From: a candidate division FCPU426 bacterium
GTDB taxonomy: Bacteria; Oederibacteriota; Muellerivitia; Muellerivitales; Muellerivitaceae
Assembly: GCA_030038835.1 (NCBI GenBank)
Contig: JASHQZ010000153.1
Span: forward strand, 1 to 46,002
DNA length: 46,002 nucleotides
Reading direction: 5' to 3'
Made by a program: the position numbers and the translations under genes. The notes below the pieces were generated by a model. It had not been told where the DNA came from. It made no database searches and saw nothing but the letters and a program-made list of their open reading frames with translations. This document shows, piece by piece, positions 8,061 to 44,568 of the stretch. Within the stretch, counting starts at the first letter, position 1; each line of letters begins with the position of its first letter.

Positions 8061-9158
8061 TTGCCTTCCTCCCGCGTGAGGCGCATCGGCATCCTGACCG
8101 GCGGCGGCGACTGCCCCGGCTTGAACGCCGTCATCCGCGCGGTGGTCAAAAACGCCTCCCAAAACAAAGTAGAGGTCGTGGGCGTCCATGACGGTTTCCT
8201 GGGCCTGGTGGAAAAAAACACCCGGCTTTTGGGCGCGGACGACGTTTCCAACATCCTGACCCTGGGGGGCACCATCCTGGGCTCCTCCAACAAGGACAAT
8301 CCCTTCCACCTGATGGAAGAGGACGCGGCGGGGAAGGTCCATTCCCATGACCGAAGCAAGGACATCCAGAAAAACCTTAAAGGCATGGGCATCGAGGCCC
8401 TCGTGGTCCTGGGCGGCGACGGAAGCATGACGGTGGCCCACAAGCTGGCCGTCATGGGCGTCCGCATCATCGGCGTCCCCAAGACCATCGACAATGATTT
8501 GGTGGGCACGGACCAGACCTTCGGCTATGACACGGCGGTTTCCATCGCCACCGAGGCCGTGGACCGCCTCCACACCGTGGCGGCCTCCCACCACCGGGTC
8601 ATCGTCATCGAAGTCATGGGACGTTACGCGGGCTGGCTGGCCCTGGGATCGGGGCTTGCGGGCGGAGGGGACATCATCCTCATCCCGGAAACGCCCTACG
8701 AAGAGAAAAAAGTCGCGGACGCCATTTGGGCCCGCCGTAAAAAGGGGAAGAAAAGCAGCATCATCGTCATCGCCGAGGGAGCCCATCCCAAGGGGGGCCA
8801 AATGGTGGTCGACCGCGTCAACCCCCTCTCGGCGGAAAGAATCCGGCTGGGAGGCATCAGCCGGGAACTGGCCCACCACCTGGAAGCCAAGTCCAGCATT
8901 GAATGCCGGTCCGTCATCCTGGGCCATGTGGTGAGGGGGGGGACGCCCACGGCCTTTGACCGGAACCTGGCCACCCTTTTCGGGGTGCACGCCATGGAAC
9001 TGGTCTTAAAGGGCCGGTTCGGCCGCATGGTGGCCTTGAAAAACACCCGCATATCCTCCGTGCCCTTGGCCCAAGTCGGCGGGAAATGCCGTAAAGTTCC
9101 CCTGAACCATGAGTGGATCAAAGCCGCCCGAAGCATCGGAGTTGAGTTTGGGGTTTGA
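8061..9158 (+). CDS. pfkA: 6-phosphofructokinase
   Basis: TTG start; GILTGGGDCPGLNAVIRAV, LGGDGSMTVA, PKTIDNDLVGTDQTFGYDTA, EVMGRYAG. Confidence 0.92.
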   Translation: MPSSRVRRIGILTGGGDCPGLNAVIRAVVKNASQNKVEVVGVHDGFLGLVEKNTRLLGADDVSNILTLGGTILGSSNKDNPFHLMEEDAAGKVHSHDRSKDIQKNLKGMGIEALVVLGGDGSMTVAHKLAVMGVRIIGVPKTIDNDLVGTDQTFGYDTAVSIATEAVDRLHTVAASHHRVIVIEVMGRYAGWLALGSGLAGGGDIILIPETPYEEKKVADAIWARRKKGKKSSIIVIAEGAHPKGGQMVVDRVNPLSAERIRLGGISRELAHHLEAKSSIECRSVILGHVVRGGTPTAFDRNLATLFGVHAMELVLKGRFGRMVALKNTRISSVPLAQVGGKCRKVPLNHEWIKAARSIGVEFGV

Positions 9159-9639
9159 GGAATTGACCGCAGAAGAACTTATCAAACTCCTCGGCTTAAA
9201 GCCCCATCCCGAAGGCGGCTATTACCGGGAAAGCTATCGAAGCCCCGGAACCATCCCCGGGCTCAACCCGTCCCGCGCCTTCTCGACCGCCATTTATTAC
9301 CTCTTGGTCCCCGGCGCCGTCTCCAAATTACACCGCCTGCGTTCGGATGAACTGTTCCACTTCCATATGGGCCATCCGGTGACTTGGGCCTTACTGGACC
9401 CGGCTGGAAGCGTGAAAAAAATCACTTTGGGACGGGATTTGCGGAACGGGCAACAACTCCAGATGTTGGTTCCGGCCGGAACATGGTTCGGCGGGGGTTT
9501 AAACCCAGGCGGGCATTACGCTTTGATGGCTACCACCGTGGCGCCGGGCTTTGAGTTTGAGGATTTTGAGCTGGGCCGGCGGGAGGAGCTTTTGCGGGCC
9601 TTCCCCCACGCGGAAAAGGAAATCCTGAAACTGACTTGA
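9109..9639 (+). CDS. Cupin superfamily protein (DUF985-type)
   Basis: LIKLLGLKPHPEGGYYRESYRS, STAIYYLL, LHRLRSDELFHFHMG, GTWFGGGL; overlaps the end of pfk by 50 nt. Confidence 0.85.
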   Translation: MSGSKPPEASELSLGFEELTAEELIKLLGLKPHPEGGYYRESYRSPGTIPGLNPSRAFSTAIYYLLVPGAVSKLHRLRSDELFHFHMGHPVTWALLDPAGSVKKITLGRDLRNGQQLQMLVPAGTWFGGGLNPGGHYALMATTVAPGFEFEDFELGRREELLRAFPHAEKEILKLT

Positions 9640-9704
9640 AACCTTAAAACCGCCCCAATTGTAGTATTAGGAAGCTTCGGATTTTGAGTTCCAAGGAGGA
9701 TGGA

Positions 9705-10121
9705 GTGAAAAAGTTAGCGGCGTTTCTTTTAACGTTGGGTTTCCTGGCGGCTTCCGCGGCCGGATGGGCCGACGACATGGACATGAATCAGGGCGGCAAG
9801 CCCCAGAAAGTGACCCTGACCGGCATCCTGGTGGACGTGGCCTGCTACCTGGATGACGGCGACATCGGGAACGACCACATGGGAATGAAGGGCTGTGGAA
9901 CCCAGTGCCTTAAAGGGGGCAGCCCGGCGGGCCTGCTGGTGGGGAAGAAGCTTTACATCCTGGCCTTCCCGGCGCCGGTTTTCGCCGATTACGTGGGGCA
10001 GCAGGTGGAACTGGCCGGGGACCTCTACGGCACCAGCAACCTGATCCCTACCAAGGCCGCGTCCATCGGCCAGGACGGCAAGAAGACCCCGATCAACATT
10101 AAGGGCAAGGCGATGATGTAA
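9705..10121 (+). CDS. Secreted uncharacterised protein with Cys/His motif
   Basis: GTG start after AAGGAGGA; signal peptide MKKLAAFLLTLGFLAASAAGWA; VDVACYLDDGDIGNDHMGMKGCGTQCLKGGSPAGLLVGKKLYIL. Confidence 0.8.
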   Translation: MKKLAAFLLTLGFLAASAAGWADDMDMNQGGKPQKVTLTGILVDVACYLDDGDIGNDHMGMKGCGTQCLKGGSPAGLLVGKKLYILAFPAPVFADYVGQQVELAGDLYGTSNLIPTKAASIGQDGKKTPINIKGKAMM

Positions 10122-10172
10122 TCAGGGCGGCCGTCCGTCGCCAGCCCTCAGCTGCCAGCCCAGAAGACAATC

Positions 10173-10211
10173 AAAGCCCCGTGGCGGGACTTCCCGAGAC
10201 AGGGCTTTTTT
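10173..10211 (+). terminator. Rho-independent terminator
   Basis: AAAGCCC ... inner CGGGACTTCCCG ... GGGCTTT followed by TTT. Confidence 0.75.
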
Positions 10212-10239
10212 ATTTTCAGCCCTAAAAAGCGACTGTAGA

Positions 10240-11094
10240 ATGCCCCGCATGATGCGAGAACCCAAGACGCCGCGCGAATACCATGTCCGGGCCGCCCTTG
10301 CCATGGCCCAAGTCGCCGCCATTGAGGGCGGCAAGAAAGCGTTGAAGTATTTCCGGAAAAAAGTGCCGGTCATTAAAAAAATCGACCGTTCTCCCGTTAC
10401 CCGGGCCGACCGCGAAGCGGAACAAGTCATCCGAAAATTGCTCCAAAAAGCCTTCCCCGACCACCAGTTGTGCGGGGAGGAATTCGGTTGGGATGAAAGA
10501 AAAAAATCCGACTTTAAGTGGTGGATTGACCCGGTGGACGGCACCCGTCAGTTCATCCGGGGCATTCCGCTCTGGGGAACTTTAATCGCATTGGAGTACA
10601 AGGGCGAAGTCGTGGCGGGGGTCATTCACCACCCGGCGATCGGGCTGACCCTTTCCGCGGCTGAAGGTTTCGGGTGTTTTCGCAACGGGCCCCGAAGATA
10701 CGATGAAACGCGGGTTTCTGTTTCTAAAATTCCAAACCTGAAGGGCGGAACCCTCACTTACGGGGGTCTGCGCCTGACCCCCCTTTCCTACCGGAAAAAA
10801 CTGACGGACTTGATCGCCACCTGTTACGACGACCGGGGTTTTGGGGATTGTTTCGGCCACTCGCTGGTCATCCAGGGCATGGTCGAAGCCATGCTGGACC
10901 CGGTGGTAAAACCCTACGACGTGGCGGCCATCAAGATCTGCGTGGAGGAAGCCGGGGGACGGTTTACGGACCTGAAAGGCCGGGATTCGGTTTACGGCGG
11001 GAACGCTTTATCCAGCAACGGCCTGGTCCATTCGCAAGTTCTCAAGGCCATCCGTTCAAAAGACTCATATAATGATTCTAAACTGAAGGCTTAA
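10240..11094 (+). CDS. Inositol monophosphatase family protein / HisN-like histidinol-phosphatase
   Basis: GEEFGWDE, WWIDPVDGTRQFIRGIPLWGTLIAL, VVKPYDVAAIKICVEEAGGRFTDLKG. Confidence 0.88.
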   Translation: MPRMMREPKTPREYHVRAALAMAQVAAIEGGKKALKYFRKKVPVIKKIDRSPVTRADREAEQVIRKLLQKAFPDHQLCGEEFGWDERKKSDFKWWIDPVDGTRQFIRGIPLWGTLIALEYKGEVVAGVIHHPAIGLTLSAAEGFGCFRNGPRRYDETRVSVSKIPNLKGGTLTYGGLRLTPLSYRKKLTDLIATCYDDRGFGDCFGHSLVIQGMVEAMLDPVVKPYDVAAIKICVEEAGGRFTDLKGRDSVYGGNALSSNGLVHSQVLKAIRSKDSYNDSKLKA

Positions 11095-11138
11095 AAACCC
11101 CCACAACGCGGAACCCAAAAATTTTGGAGGCGTTCTCC

Positions 11139-11405
11139 ATGGGCAATTGGCACGACGCTCACGGCCTCATCGGAATTCTCCTGGTCGGCATATTGACGGG
11201 ATGGCTGGCCAGCAAGCTCGTCCAAGGCAAGGGGATGGGAATCCTCCCCGACATGGTGGTGGGCATCCTGGGCGCCCTTTTGGGAGGTTTTCTCGCCCAT
11301 TTTTTCCACATCCCCATGGACAACTGGCTGGAAACCTTCGGGGTTTACGTCCTGGGGTCGGTGGTGCTGCTAGTTGGCATCCGTCTTTTAAAATCCTCCA
11401 ACTAG
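11139..11405 (+). CDS. GlsB/YeaQ/YmgE-like small membrane protein
   Basis: GILLVGILTGWLASKLVQGKGMGILPDMVVGILGALLGGFL; GGAGG upstream of ATG 11139. Confidence 0.85.
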   Translation: MGNWHDAHGLIGILLVGILTGWLASKLVQGKGMGILPDMVVGILGALLGGFLAHFFHIPMDNWLETFGVYVLGSVVLLVGIRLLKSSN

Positions 11406-11412
11406 GAATCCC

Positions 11413-12162
11413 ATGATCCACAAGAAAAAGGTCATCGTCGTGATGCCGGCCTATAACGCGGCAAAGACCCTCAAGAAAACCTATGACGAGATCCCCAAAG
11501 ACATCGTGGATGAAATCATCCTGGTGGACGACGCCAGCCGGGATGAAACGGCCCAACTGGCGAAGAAACTGAAAATAAAGACCTTCGTCCATCCCCGGAA
11601 CAGGGGGTACGGCGGCAACCAAAAGACCTGTTACGCCGCGGCTTTGAAGCGAAAAGCCGATATCGTGATCATGCTGCATCCGGATTACCAGTACACTCCC
11701 AAACTGGTTCCCGCCATGGCTTATATGCTGGCCTCGGGCGAATACGACGTGGTGCTGGGCTCGCGCATTTTGGGCGGACAGGCCCTGAAAGGCGGCATGC
11801 CGCCTTACAAATATATCAGCAACCGCTTCCTCACTTTCACCCAAAACATCCTCATGGGGGCCAAACTTTCCGAATACCACACGGGATACCGGGCCTTTAC
11901 CCGGAAGGTCCTGGAATCCATTCCCATGGAGAAAAATTCCGACGACTTCATCTTCGATAACCAGATGCTCTCACAGATCCACTATTTGGGTTTCCGCATC
12001 GCCGAGGTTACCTGCCCGGCCAAGTATTTCGCCGAGGCGTCCTCCATCAATTTCGTGCGCAGCACGAAATACGGTTTAGGGTGCCTTTGGACCGCCCTGC
12101 AGTTTCGCCTCAGCAAAATGGGGTTTAAATTCGGCCTCTTTAACTTCGATTCAAAACGGTAG
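11413..12162 (+). CDS. Glycosyltransferase family 2
   Basis: VIVVMPAYNAAKTLKKTYDEIPKDIVDEIILVDDASRDET, RNRGYGGNQKTCY, VVLGSRILGG. Confidence 0.92.
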   Translation: MIHKKKVIVVMPAYNAAKTLKKTYDEIPKDIVDEIILVDDASRDETAQLAKKLKIKTFVHPRNRGYGGNQKTCYAAALKRKADIVIMLHPDYQYTPKLVPAMAYMLASGEYDVVLGSRILGGQALKGGMPPYKYISNRFLTFTQNILMGAKLSEYHTGYRAFTRKVLESIPMEKNSDDFIFDNQMLSQIHYLGFRIAEVTCPAKYFAEASSINFVRSTKYGLGCLWTALQFRLSKMGFKFGLFNFDSKR

Positions 12163-40990: not shown

Positions 40991-41143
40991 CTTGCACCCC
41001 TTGCAGGACAAGGGGCCGTGTTAAAATCGGCCTTCTTTGCCTTGAAAGGCTTTATAAAAAGTCGCAGTAAAAATATAATATTGGCCTTGGGGAAACGTTG
41101 GTGGGCGGCCATTTCGCCCTAGAATTCAAACACTGGATAAAGC

Positions 41144-42556
41144 GTGAAACCTCTCATTTTAATCGTCGACGATGAAGAAAGCGTCCGCGAATCCTTCCGC
41201 CTGGCGCTCCAGGACGAGTACGACTTGGCCTTCGCGGAGGACGTCAAGGCCGCCCTCCAGATCTTAAAAAGCCAAAATTTTGACCTTTGCCTCCTGGACA
41301 TCATGCTCCCGGACGGTTCGGGCATTGACCTCTTGCGGCAGATCAAGCGCAGGGACGAATCGCTGGACGTCATCATGGTAACCGCCCTCACGGGTGTGGA
41401 CACGGCCTTGGACGCCATGAAATTGGGGGCCTACGATTACATCACCAAACCCTATAAGATTGAGGAATTGTACGAGCTGATCAAGCGGGTCCTAGAGAAA
41501 AGGGCCTTGGAGAAGGAAAATCGTTTTTTGAGGGAGGAACTCAGCGCCAAGAAACCCGTCTGCCTGATGGGCTCCAGCAAAGCCGTCCAAGAACTGGCGA
41601 AAAAAATATCCGGGATCGCCAAGGCCGATTTGCCGGTTCTTCTCCAAGGCGAAATGGGAAGCGGCGTCGAGGAAGTGGCCCGCGAACTGCATACCCAAAG
41701 CTTGAGGCACCGCGGCCCTTTCATTACCGTTCCCTGCGCGTCCTTTTCCAAGGCCCAGTTGGAGAAAGAACTTTTCGGCGAGGAAGGCGACGAAGCCAAG
41801 AACAAGTCCCACCAGATCGGCAAGTTGGAGTTCGCCGACGGGGGAACCCTGTTTTTGGACCAAGTGGACCGCCTGCCGGTCGAGACCCAGGATAAATTAG
41901 TGAAAGTTTTCCTGGATCGGAAGTTTTCCCGGCTTGGAAGCCAGGCTACCTTACCATTGGACATCCGCGTCATCGCCTCTACCGATTCGGACCTCGAGCT
42001 GAACCTAAACCGGGGAACTTTCCGGAGGGATTTGCAACAATTTTTGAACTCTTTTTCCCTTGCCCTTCCGCCCCTCCGGGAGCGCCGCGAGGATATCCCG
42101 CCCCTGGTGGATTATTTCCTGAAATTGGCCAACCAAAAGGCCAAGACGCCCGTTAAGACCCTCCAAAAGGAAGCTCTCCAGTTTTTAACCCAATACGGCT
42201 GGCCGGGAAACCTAAGGGAGTTGGAGAATAACATTGAAATGATGGTTTTGTTCGCCGGCAAGGAAACGCTGACCTTGGAGGACATCCCCCTCGACATCCT
42301 GGTTAAGCAGATCGATTTGGCGAAGACCAAGGAAGAAGCAAAACTTTCGCTTAAGCGGGTCCGCCGCCAGTTCGAGCGGCAGTACATTCGGAAGGTGCTG
42401 GAACGCACGCGGGGCAACCAAACCCGCACCGCCGCCACCTTAGGGCTCCACCGCAATACCCTGATTTGGAAGCTGAAGGAACTCAACCTCGAGGAAGATT
42501 ACAAACGGATCGTCAAGAAGCGGCGGGAGCGCGGCGTGGGCTTCCGCAATTTATAG
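41144..42556 (+). CDS. NtrC-family response regulator with degenerate AAA+ (sigma54-activator) domain and Fis HTH
   Basis: Receiver LILIVDDEES...LLDIMLPDGSG...VTA...TKPY intact; AAA+ motifs degenerate (GEMGSGVEEVA, ELFGEEGDEAKNKSHQIGKLEFADGGTLFLDQVD); C-terminal RTRGNQTRTAATLGLHRNTLIWKLKEL. Confidence 0.9.
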   Translation: MKPLILIVDDEESVRESFRLALQDEYDLAFAEDVKAALQILKSQNFDLCLLDIMLPDGSGIDLLRQIKRRDESLDVIMVTALTGVDTALDAMKLGAYDYITKPYKIEELYELIKRVLEKRALEKENRFLREELSAKKPVCLMGSSKAVQELAKKISGIAKADLPVLLQGEMGSGVEEVARELHTQSLRHRGPFITVPCASFSKAQLEKELFGEEGDEAKNKSHQIGKLEFADGGTLFLDQVDRLPVETQDKLVKVFLDRKFSRLGSQATLPLDIRVIASTDSDLELNLNRGTFRRDLQQFLNSFSLALPPLRERREDIPPLVDYFLKLANQKAKTPVKTLQKEALQFLTQYGWPGNLRELENNIEMMVLFAGKETLTLEDIPLDILVKQIDLAKTKEEAKLSLKRVRRQFERQYIRKVLERTRGNQTRTAATLGLHRNTLIWKLKELNLEEDYKRIVKKRRERGVGFRNL

Positions 42557-42604: not shown

Positions 42605-43738
42605 TTGAATTGGCTTTCCCTTCTCCAATCGTTGCACCGCCGGTTTCCCCGGAGTAACGATCCTCCAACCCGGTTTTCAATTGTTGAAAAATGGCTGCAA
42701 AAAAACCTCCGTTTTCGGAAAGCGGTCTTGTGGGGCCTCCAAAACGGTGTTTTTGAACCCCTTGTTTCCCCTCCTCAAACGGTTCGTCTCAGGGAAAGCC
42801 CTGAATTTCGGCGCTTGGTTTCCGGACGTCCGTGGATCGCCCCCCGAAGGGACCGGAAGAGGAAGTGGCAGGTTTATTGGCCTGTTTCCTCCGACGGCCA
42901 AGTGATCGCTTGCTGGGTCTTAGGGCCCCGGCCCACCCCGGCCGCTTTGACCGGGGATGAAAAACAATTCCTGGAACTGCTGGCCGATTGGACCTCCTTA
43001 TGGCTGGAGAAAAGACGGCTTTGGGCCAAATTGGAAAGTTCCGACCGGCAAGCCACCCTCGGATGGGTGTCGGCCGCAATGGCGCATGAGATCCGGAACC
43101 CTTTGTCCGCCCTGAACACCTTGGTGCAGCTCCTCCCGCAAAAAGGGGACGACCCTCAATTCAGGGAATCATTTCAAATAACCGTGGTAAAGGAAATCGG
43201 CCGCCTCATCCGATTGACCGATGATGTGCTGGGCTTTTTGAGGGTTGATCCGCAAGAAATGCGGAAATTGGATTTCAAGGATTTGGCCGACCATACCACC
43301 CGCTTGGTCCGTCCTTTGTTTGCTTCCAAGAAAGTCGAATTGGCGGTTGAGATTGAAAATCCCCTTTTTCTTACCGGTAACGAAGGACAATTGGAGTGTT
43401 TTATCCTTAATTTGCTTCAAAACGCCCTCAACGCCGTTGGGGAGGGTGGGAAAGTGGAAATATCGGCTAAGTCCAGGTCGGCTTCGGCCAAAGGAAAGGC
43501 TTCAATCCTCTTGATGGTAAAGGATAATGGAAAGGGAATTCCCAAGGAGGAATTACCCTTTATTTTCAGGTCCTTTTATTCCTCCACCCAAGGGGGAAGC
43601 GGGTTAGGCCTAGCCATTTGTGAGAAAATCGTTATGAATCACGGCGGCCGCATGGAAGTGAAAAGCGTCTACGGCAAAGGCAGCATTTTTTCAGCGTATT
43701 TTCCAGCTTTGCCGCGTCACCTCAACGCCTTGGATTAG
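42605..43738 (+). CDS. Soluble sensor histidine kinase (GAF-like N-terminal region)
   Basis: MAHEIRNPLSALNTLVQL, NLLQNALNAV, VKDNGKGIPKEELPFIFRSFYSSTQGGSGLGLAICEKIVMNHGG. Confidence 0.92.
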   Translation: MNWLSLLQSLHRRFPRSNDPPTRFSIVEKWLQKNLRFRKAVLWGLQNGVFEPLVSPPQTVRLRESPEFRRLVSGRPWIAPRRDRKRKWQVYWPVSSDGQVIACWVLGPRPTPAALTGDEKQFLELLADWTSLWLEKRRLWAKLESSDRQATLGWVSAAMAHEIRNPLSALNTLVQLLPQKGDDPQFRESFQITVVKEIGRLIRLTDDVLGFLRVDPQEMRKLDFKDLADHTTRLVRPLFASKKVELAVEIENPLFLTGNEGQLECFILNLLQNALNAVGEGGKVEISAKSRSASAKGKASILLMVKDNGKGIPKEELPFIFRSFYSSTQGGSGLGLAICEKIVMNHGGRMEVKSVYGKGSIFSAYFPALPRHLNALD

Positions 43739-43899
43739 GTTCAGCGATCATATTCTCCTTTCGCGATGATTGCGGGAATCCCCACTTCCCGCCGGGCGGA
43801 GGATGAAAGAACCAGCCGAGTCTGGCTATAAAAAAACCTTTTTCGGCCATTTTCTGCTAAATTAGACCCGTTTGGATAGGAAAAGCTGTGGGGGTTTGC

Positions 43900-44484
43900 A
43901 TGGGTAAAAGCACCTTGCGGATTTTAATCTTGGAAGATGACGCCTATTTCCGAAACCTCCTTCAAAAAGTTTGTGGCGAGATAGGGGAAAGTTTTGCGGT
44001 GGCGGATCCCCAGTCGGCCCTGAATCTACTGGCAAAACACCCCTTCCATCTTTTATTGGTGGATTGGCACCTCAACAAATCGGATTTGTCCTCATTTTAT
44101 TCCGCGATCGAAAATTTCCATCCCAACGTGCCTTGGGTGGCTTTATTCACGGTTCCAAACCTGGCGTCGGTGATATCCGCGATGAAGTCCGGCGCTGCCG
44201 ATATTCTTTGGGCCACCCAAGAGACGGGAGTTCTGAAAGAAAAAATAAAAGGTTCCCTTCAAAAACCCAGGGCCCCCATTTACGCTCATTCCCTTGTATC
44301 CCGCCTGACCGAATCCCTGACGGAAAGGGCCGTATCCCAGAAAATTCCCCTTTTTCAAGCCCGCCGTGAATTTTCCAAGACATTCCTTCGACAAATTTTG
44401 AGCCAGCAAAAACTAAGGCGGACCCAATTGGCGGTTTTATTAGGCGTCAGTCCCAGGACATTGCACCGATATTTGTCGGCTTAA
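43900..44484 (+). CDS. Atypical response regulator with C-terminal Fis-like HTH
   Basis: RILILEDDAYFRNLL, LLLVDWHLNKSD, C-terminal LRRTQLAVLLGVSPRTLHRYLSA; receiver Lys missing (GAADILWATQETG). Confidence 0.75.
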   Translation: MGKSTLRILILEDDAYFRNLLQKVCGEIGESFAVADPQSALNLLAKHPFHLLLVDWHLNKSDLSSFYSAIENFHPNVPWVALFTVPNLASVISAMKSGAADILWATQETGVLKEKIKGSLQKPRAPIYAHSLVSRLTESLTERAVSQKIPLFQARREFSKTFLRQILSQQKLRRTQLAVLLGVSPRTLHRYLSA

Positions 44485-44568
44485 GAGAGCCTGCGGCCGC
44501 GGATTTTTCCGAATAGGCCAAAGGGCGAGACAAAGGCCTTAAAAACCCTTTAAAAACACAGAAAATCC

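Follow-up and report, generated by a model that had tools for sequence, protein, structure and literature searches.

RegA/PrrA/ActR response regulators consist of a receiver and a Fis-type HTH output without a working AAA+ domain. Members of the sigma54-activator family that have left sigma54 are already known, but usually with the ATP site kept. NtrC proteins of Rhodobacter capsulatus and Caulobacter, which lack the GAFTGA motif, act at sigma70 promoters (PMC10274813); mutants of Caulobacter NtrC in the GAFTGA-less background can influence sigma54-dependent genes. HupR, TyrR, and VpsR, activator-family members in which a proper GAFTGA is missing, also act with sigma70 (PMC3162934, PMC10274813). 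No literature on AAA+ pseudoenzyme response regulators was found.

We analyzed a 46,002-nt stretch of DNA (the window) from a candidate division FCPU426 MAG of 2.6 Mb and 85% completeness (G000). The window encodes an NtrC-type regulator with a degenerate ATPase domain, and an automated annotation as a sigma54-dependent regulator would probably be wrong. Our main reading, to which we assign a probability of about 0.7, is that a former sigma54 activator has become an ATP-hydrolysis-independent, kinase-controlled DNA-binding response regulator acting at sigma70-type promoters.

Locus and Domain Organization

The regulator (470 aa) was encoded at 41144–42556 by a reading frame uninterrupted from a GTG codon at 41144 to the stop codon ending at 42556; this start was supported by orthologues with the same start codon. 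The regulator, its domains, motifs, and promoter, and the two regulatory genes downstream all lie on the forward (+) strand. Pfam profiles revealed a receiver (Response_reg, residues 5–113, 41156–41482), a catalytically degenerate AAA+ sigma54-activator core (Sigma54_activat, 146 bits, residues 141–306, 41564–42061), an AAA lid (AAA_lid_14, residues 312–390, 42077–42313), and a Fis-type HTH (HTH_8, residues 407–447, 42362–42484), which is the domain order of the NtrC family. The DD/D/T/K active site of the receiver was complete according to Pfam and structure alignment, with the acidic residues D9 and D10, phospho-acceptor D52, T80, and K102. The HTH was followed by a basic C-terminal tail, EEDYKRIVKKRRERGVGFRNL (residues 450–470, 42491–42553), delimited by orthologue comparison and the structural model, in which residues 450–467 form a helix.

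The AlphaFold2 model of the whole protein kept the fold (mean pLDDT 86, pTM 0.62), including the P-loop geometry. The sequence-only reading had described the receiver residues and HTH as intact and the fold as otherwise kept, and these descriptions hold. The top PDB matches were NtrX of Brucella, followed by the sigma54 activators NtrC1 and NtrC4; the score of 370.6 bits falls below the NCBIfam equivalog cut-off of 600 bits for an NtrX orthologue. An Rfam scan of the window gave no matches.

Degeneration of the ATPase Motifs

The Walker A remnant GEMGSGVEE (residues 169–177, 41648–41674) carried Val instead of Lys at position 175, and the Walker B remnant GGTLFLDQV (residues 233–241, 41840–41866) had Gln instead of Glu at position 240. 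Loop 1 (ELFGEEGDEAKNKSHQIGKLEFA, 41768–41836) was devoid of GAFTGA: residues 209–231 read ELFG-EEGDEAKNKSHQIGKLEFA, one residue short of the canonical loop. In the arginine-finger segment FRRDLQQFLNSF (42020–42055), which contains FRRDLQQF at residues 293–300, the first Arg was retained and the second was replaced by Phe at position 300. These four alterations agree exactly with those quoted in the earlier reading, which overlooked a fifth one: in the sensor I remnant RVIASTDSD (41966–41992), the Asn of the canonical AATN is replaced by Asp (AST-D). The protein thus lacks GAFTGA, Walker A GxxGxGK, Walker B DE, and the full pair of arginine fingers expected of a functional bEBP, while RpoN, the genomic requirement for such a protein, was encoded in the host genome.

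A degenerate orthologue was found in nine of the nine genomes of the class, eight of the host family and one of a second family in the order, as a single best match per genome; the copy in G003 was split into two fragments at contig edges. Walker A was covered in eight of the nine orthologues and altered in all eight, ending in GSGV, GTGI, GSGM, or GSHK. Its Lys was replaced by V, I, or M in every host-family orthologue covering it. The most distant orthologue (G008) kept this Lys, with the preceding Gly replaced by His and Walker B DE by NQ. Across the class, Walker B read DQ, EQ, QQ, VD (in G002), or NQ, and GAFTGA was present in loop 1 of no orthologue. The substitutions varied between lineages and in none of them was a motif restored, as expected for a site that is apparently no longer maintained. 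No internal stops were found, and the frame was open in every full-length copy. Because the altered motifs are common to independently assembled relatives, they are not a sequencing accident, and a local pseudogene or assembly error was ruled out. Orthologues with intact motifs, which would have spoken for such a local event, were absent from the class; elsewhere in the phylum, the best matches were about 36–43% identical and kept Walker A.

This pattern bears on two other explanations. The first is that the protein is still a sigma54 activator but works by a modified chemistry and with another kind of loop 1. RpoN was found in every genome of the class, which would suit such a role; Walker A, Walker B, sensor I, the arginine finger, and loop 1 were, however, altered differently in each lineage, which points to decay and not to replacement by a new conserved motif, and we consider this explanation very improbable. 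The second is that only ATP hydrolysis was lost and that the former site, or a place close to it, still binds ATP, ADP, or c-di-GMP, which would serve a structural or sensory purpose. It is consistent with the fold and P-loop geometry of the model, with the Walker B Asp kept in the host protein and several close relatives, and with the precedents of ATP binding in R. capsulatus NtrC and of c-di-GMP in VpsR or FleQ. On the other hand, besides the loss of the Walker A Lys throughout the host family, the Walker B Asp was changed in G001, G002, G007, and G008, and no pattern of nucleotide contacts was constant across the class. We regard a ligand-binding role of this kind as unlikely.

Intact Activators and RpoN in the Same Genomes

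The presence of RpoN in all nine class genomes ruled out its loss as the cause of the degeneration. Four other activators were encoded in the host genome, scoring 227–252 bits on the sigma54-activator profile versus 149 bits for the degenerate regulator. Walker A, Walker B, and both arginine fingers were intact in all four, and their loop 1 was GAFTGA-like (GSYTGA, GSFTGA in two, and GAFTDA). The nearest paralogue was only about 39% identical to the degenerate regulator.

Domain-Wise Selection

We counted the differences per domain in seven genome pairs, both for the degenerate protein and for an L021-type paralogue with intact motifs. Among the four closer pairs, the AAA+ core differed at 24 of 166 positions versus 2 of 167 in the paralogue (p = 2.5e-6, pair 1), at 42/166 versus 4/167 (p = 2e-10), at 63/166 versus 13/167 (p = 2e-11), and at 47 versus 8 of about 166 positions, p values thus ranging from 2.5e-6 to 2e-11; in the closest pairs, the core changed about ten times as much as that of the paralogue. 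For the lid and HTH, these four pairs showed no difference from the paralogue, and a receiver excess (12/116 versus 3/117, p = 0.017) was seen only in pair 1. The remaining three pairs, which are distant, had a far larger AAA+ excess, accompanied by some receiver and lid excess and, in two of the three, by a slight HTH excess (p = 0.026 and 0.05). The receiver and lid outpaced the paralogue in G001, G002, and G008, and so did the HTH in G001. Only the AAA+ core was consistently faster than the intact paralogue in all seven pairs.

The dN/dS ratio of the AAA+ core (NG86; dS saturated in several pairs) was 0.12–0.17 versus 0.006–0.012 in the paralogue. It was well below 1 in all domains, and purifying selection thus still acts on both the AAA+ core and the lid. 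A raised but low ratio indicates that the core has been freed from catalytic, not from structural, constraint. Since selection maintains the core and lid and the predicted fold is intact, the regulator may still bind nucleotide.

The rapid change of the AAA+ core is the one point in favor of a pseudogene in progress. This explanation, which we consider extremely improbable, is refuted by the open frame of every full-length orthologue, the low dN/dS in all domains, an HTH with few or no substitutions among five genomes whose overall identity falls to 78%, and the conservation of the promoter and of the synteny in two families (see below). It is also very unlikely that the regulator is a dead partner in the sigma54 pathway, co-assembling with an intact activator and poisoning or tuning its ring, or competing for enhancer sites. 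Intact activators of the response-regulator type occur in the same genomes and the AAA lid and fold are kept, which speaks for such a role; yet the low identity to the nearest paralogue, an HTH recognition segment unlike that of the paralogues, and the fact that the AAA surface changes fastest, unexpected for a protein fitting a conserved partner ring, argue against it.

The sequence-only reading, which took the protein for one unable to remodel sigma54-RNA polymerase by ATP hydrolysis and possibly a phosphorylation-controlled oligomeric DNA binder or repressor, is thus partly supported. The predicted incapacity is the well-supported part, resting on the class-wide motif loss, the loss of constraint specific to the AAA domain, and a host genome that also encodes RpoN and intact activators.

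Origin and Sister Family

We built a tree of 42 proteins, in which all eight degenerate proteins of near-full length formed one clade (support 100/100) that grouped with a phylum-wide set carrying GAFTSA or GAFSSA in loop 1 (support 100/98). When the decayed domain was left out and only the receiver and HTH were used, the tree recovered the same grouping (support 94/88). Branching inside the joint group was weak (74/70), and the tree tool warned of long branches. These phylogenies indicate a single origin of the degenerate state.

The GAFTSA family (L049–L057, L059) of the same phylum, closest to the regulator by tree, has an HTH of the same type (NQTxAA..GIHRNTL). It differs in that Walker A and both arginine fingers are intact, the AAA domain is conserved, and Walker B is DD or DE (DD instead of DE, two members excepted). 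All degenerate orthologues have the basic tail after the HTH, whereas most sister proteins stop at the HTH and the tail of L057 is unrelated; the tail is a gain of the degenerate clade. The sister clade, with Walker A intact and present in other families of the phylum, likely represents the ancestral state. Lineages of one phylum thus appear to show successive steps, from GAFTSA with an otherwise intact ATPase through Walker B DD to complete loss, and this suggests a stepwise decay in which loop 1 was lost first, the Walker B Glu next, and then the remaining motifs. Since Ser at position 5 of GAFTGA was graded as only putatively functional in a 2011 survey (PMC3162934), the GAFTSA/GAFSSA proteins may have kept their activator function.

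Seven genomes of the host family were observed to encode another degenerate activator family as well, with PAS, AAA, and Fis HTH domains (L006 1066–2352, G000:C247; relatives L109–L114). Its PAS domain contains a conserved CFFC pair; Walker A is kept (GEKGTGKK), the GAFTGA region is deleted, and the Walker B Glu is replaced (LYLDG; LYLDS in one).

Gene Neighborhood and Promoter

The gene downstream, conserved in this position, encodes a histidine kinase with HisKA and HATPase_c domains (42605–43738; Pfam, synteny), which is the likely cognate kinase. Its N-terminal part is predicted to be GAF-like, with no obvious membrane segment. The conserved third gene (43888–44484; Pfam, synteny) encodes a small regulator of 198 aa with a degenerate receiver and an HTH, located 3' of the kinase gene in six genomes; none of the copies had the catalytic Lys of the receiver, and the G008 copy lacked the phospho-acceptor as well. 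The genes before the regulator are presumably ftsZ and those of polysaccharide deacetylase-like, amidase-like, YfiH-like, and OGG-type glycosylase proteins. The order from ftsZ to the small regulator gene was the same in G000, G005, and G006; it was also found, with some gene differences, in G008 of the second family, and most of it in G007. The synteny of the regulator is thus conserved across two families. In G001 and G002, the orthologue lies beside a hybrid kinase instead, with the kinase and small regulator still following in G001. The hybrid kinase and a receiver-kinase form a pair (L063 3013–7001; L064 about 8690–11868) that occupies another genomic location in the remaining class genomes.

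Upstream of the regulator, a promoter scan identified a sigma70-type promoter, TTTATA-17-TATAAT (41051–41079), conserved in five genomes. The conserved promoter-proximal element GAAAGnCTTTATAAA (41044–41058), which holds the dyad AAAG-n-CTTT, was followed by TATAAT at a spacing of 16–17 nt in all five alignable upstream regions, and the dyad may be an autoregulatory site. Searching the genome with the conserved promoter element GAAAGNCTTTATAA gave four sites versus five for the control; a looser pattern gave 40 versus 24, several of the matches being copies of a dispersed repeat (CTCTTACCACAAAGGGCACGAAGTACGCAAAGTGAGGCAT...) of the host genome (L079, L081, L086). As operator enrichment in the genome was not clear, we make no claim of a regulon. 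A sigma54 promoter scan of the window yielded 15 matches versus 21.6 expected, i.e., no excess.

An A/T-rich element, AAAACCCTTTAAAAA (44531–44556), resembling the one 5' of 41144, was observed upstream of the conserved TTGCCA-17-TATAAA-like promoter of an HU gene; it might be no more than an upstream promoter element.

According to our main reading, the soluble kinase would phosphorylate D52, as its adjacency suggests. Phosphorylation would then rearrange the receiver and the retained AAA+ scaffold and so alter how tightly the Fis-type HTHs bind or how they are spaced, and the DNA-bound regulator would activate or repress sigma70-type RNA polymerase promoters, possibly including its own. A broader and rather doubtful extension treats the operon as a "pseudo" signaling module, in which a dead-AAA regulator and a pseudo-receiver HTH protein, both descended from response regulators, would be under the control of one soluble kinase and act jointly at sigma70 promoters, with the AAA+ domain no longer an engine but serving as a protein- or ligand-binding platform. 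The system lets one ask what an AAA+ scaffold serves once ATP hydrolysis is impossible and how a sigma54 activator becomes a sigma70 regulator while RpoN persists.

Comparison with Known Systems

The best PDB match in both sequence and fold, NtrX of Brucella abortus (PDB 5m7n/5m7o/5m7p), shares with the regulator the receiver, AAA, and Fis HTH domains and the absence of GAFTGA. In the alignment, however, NtrX, which was crystallized with ATP and ADP, retains Lys in Walker A (GAGKE) as well as DE in Walker B, both of which the regulator has lost. In RegA/PrrA/ActR the AAA+ domain is absent, whereas here it is kept as a constrained scaffold. HupR, TyrR, and VpsR are comparable in the loss of the loop, although in our comparison the full set of losses seen in the regulator was shown for none of them; TyrR has another regulatory domain, and VpsR is under ligand control and does not require ATP. 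The NtrC proteins of R. capsulatus and Caulobacter share with the regulator the two-component NtrC architecture, the loss of the sigma54 contact loop, and the intact receiver and HTH. The former requires ATP binding and the latter its Walker residues, while those of the regulator are gone. Judged by its sequence and that of its relatives, the regulator carries this known kind of change further: the nucleotide site itself is degenerate, and in an orthologue conserved throughout the class.
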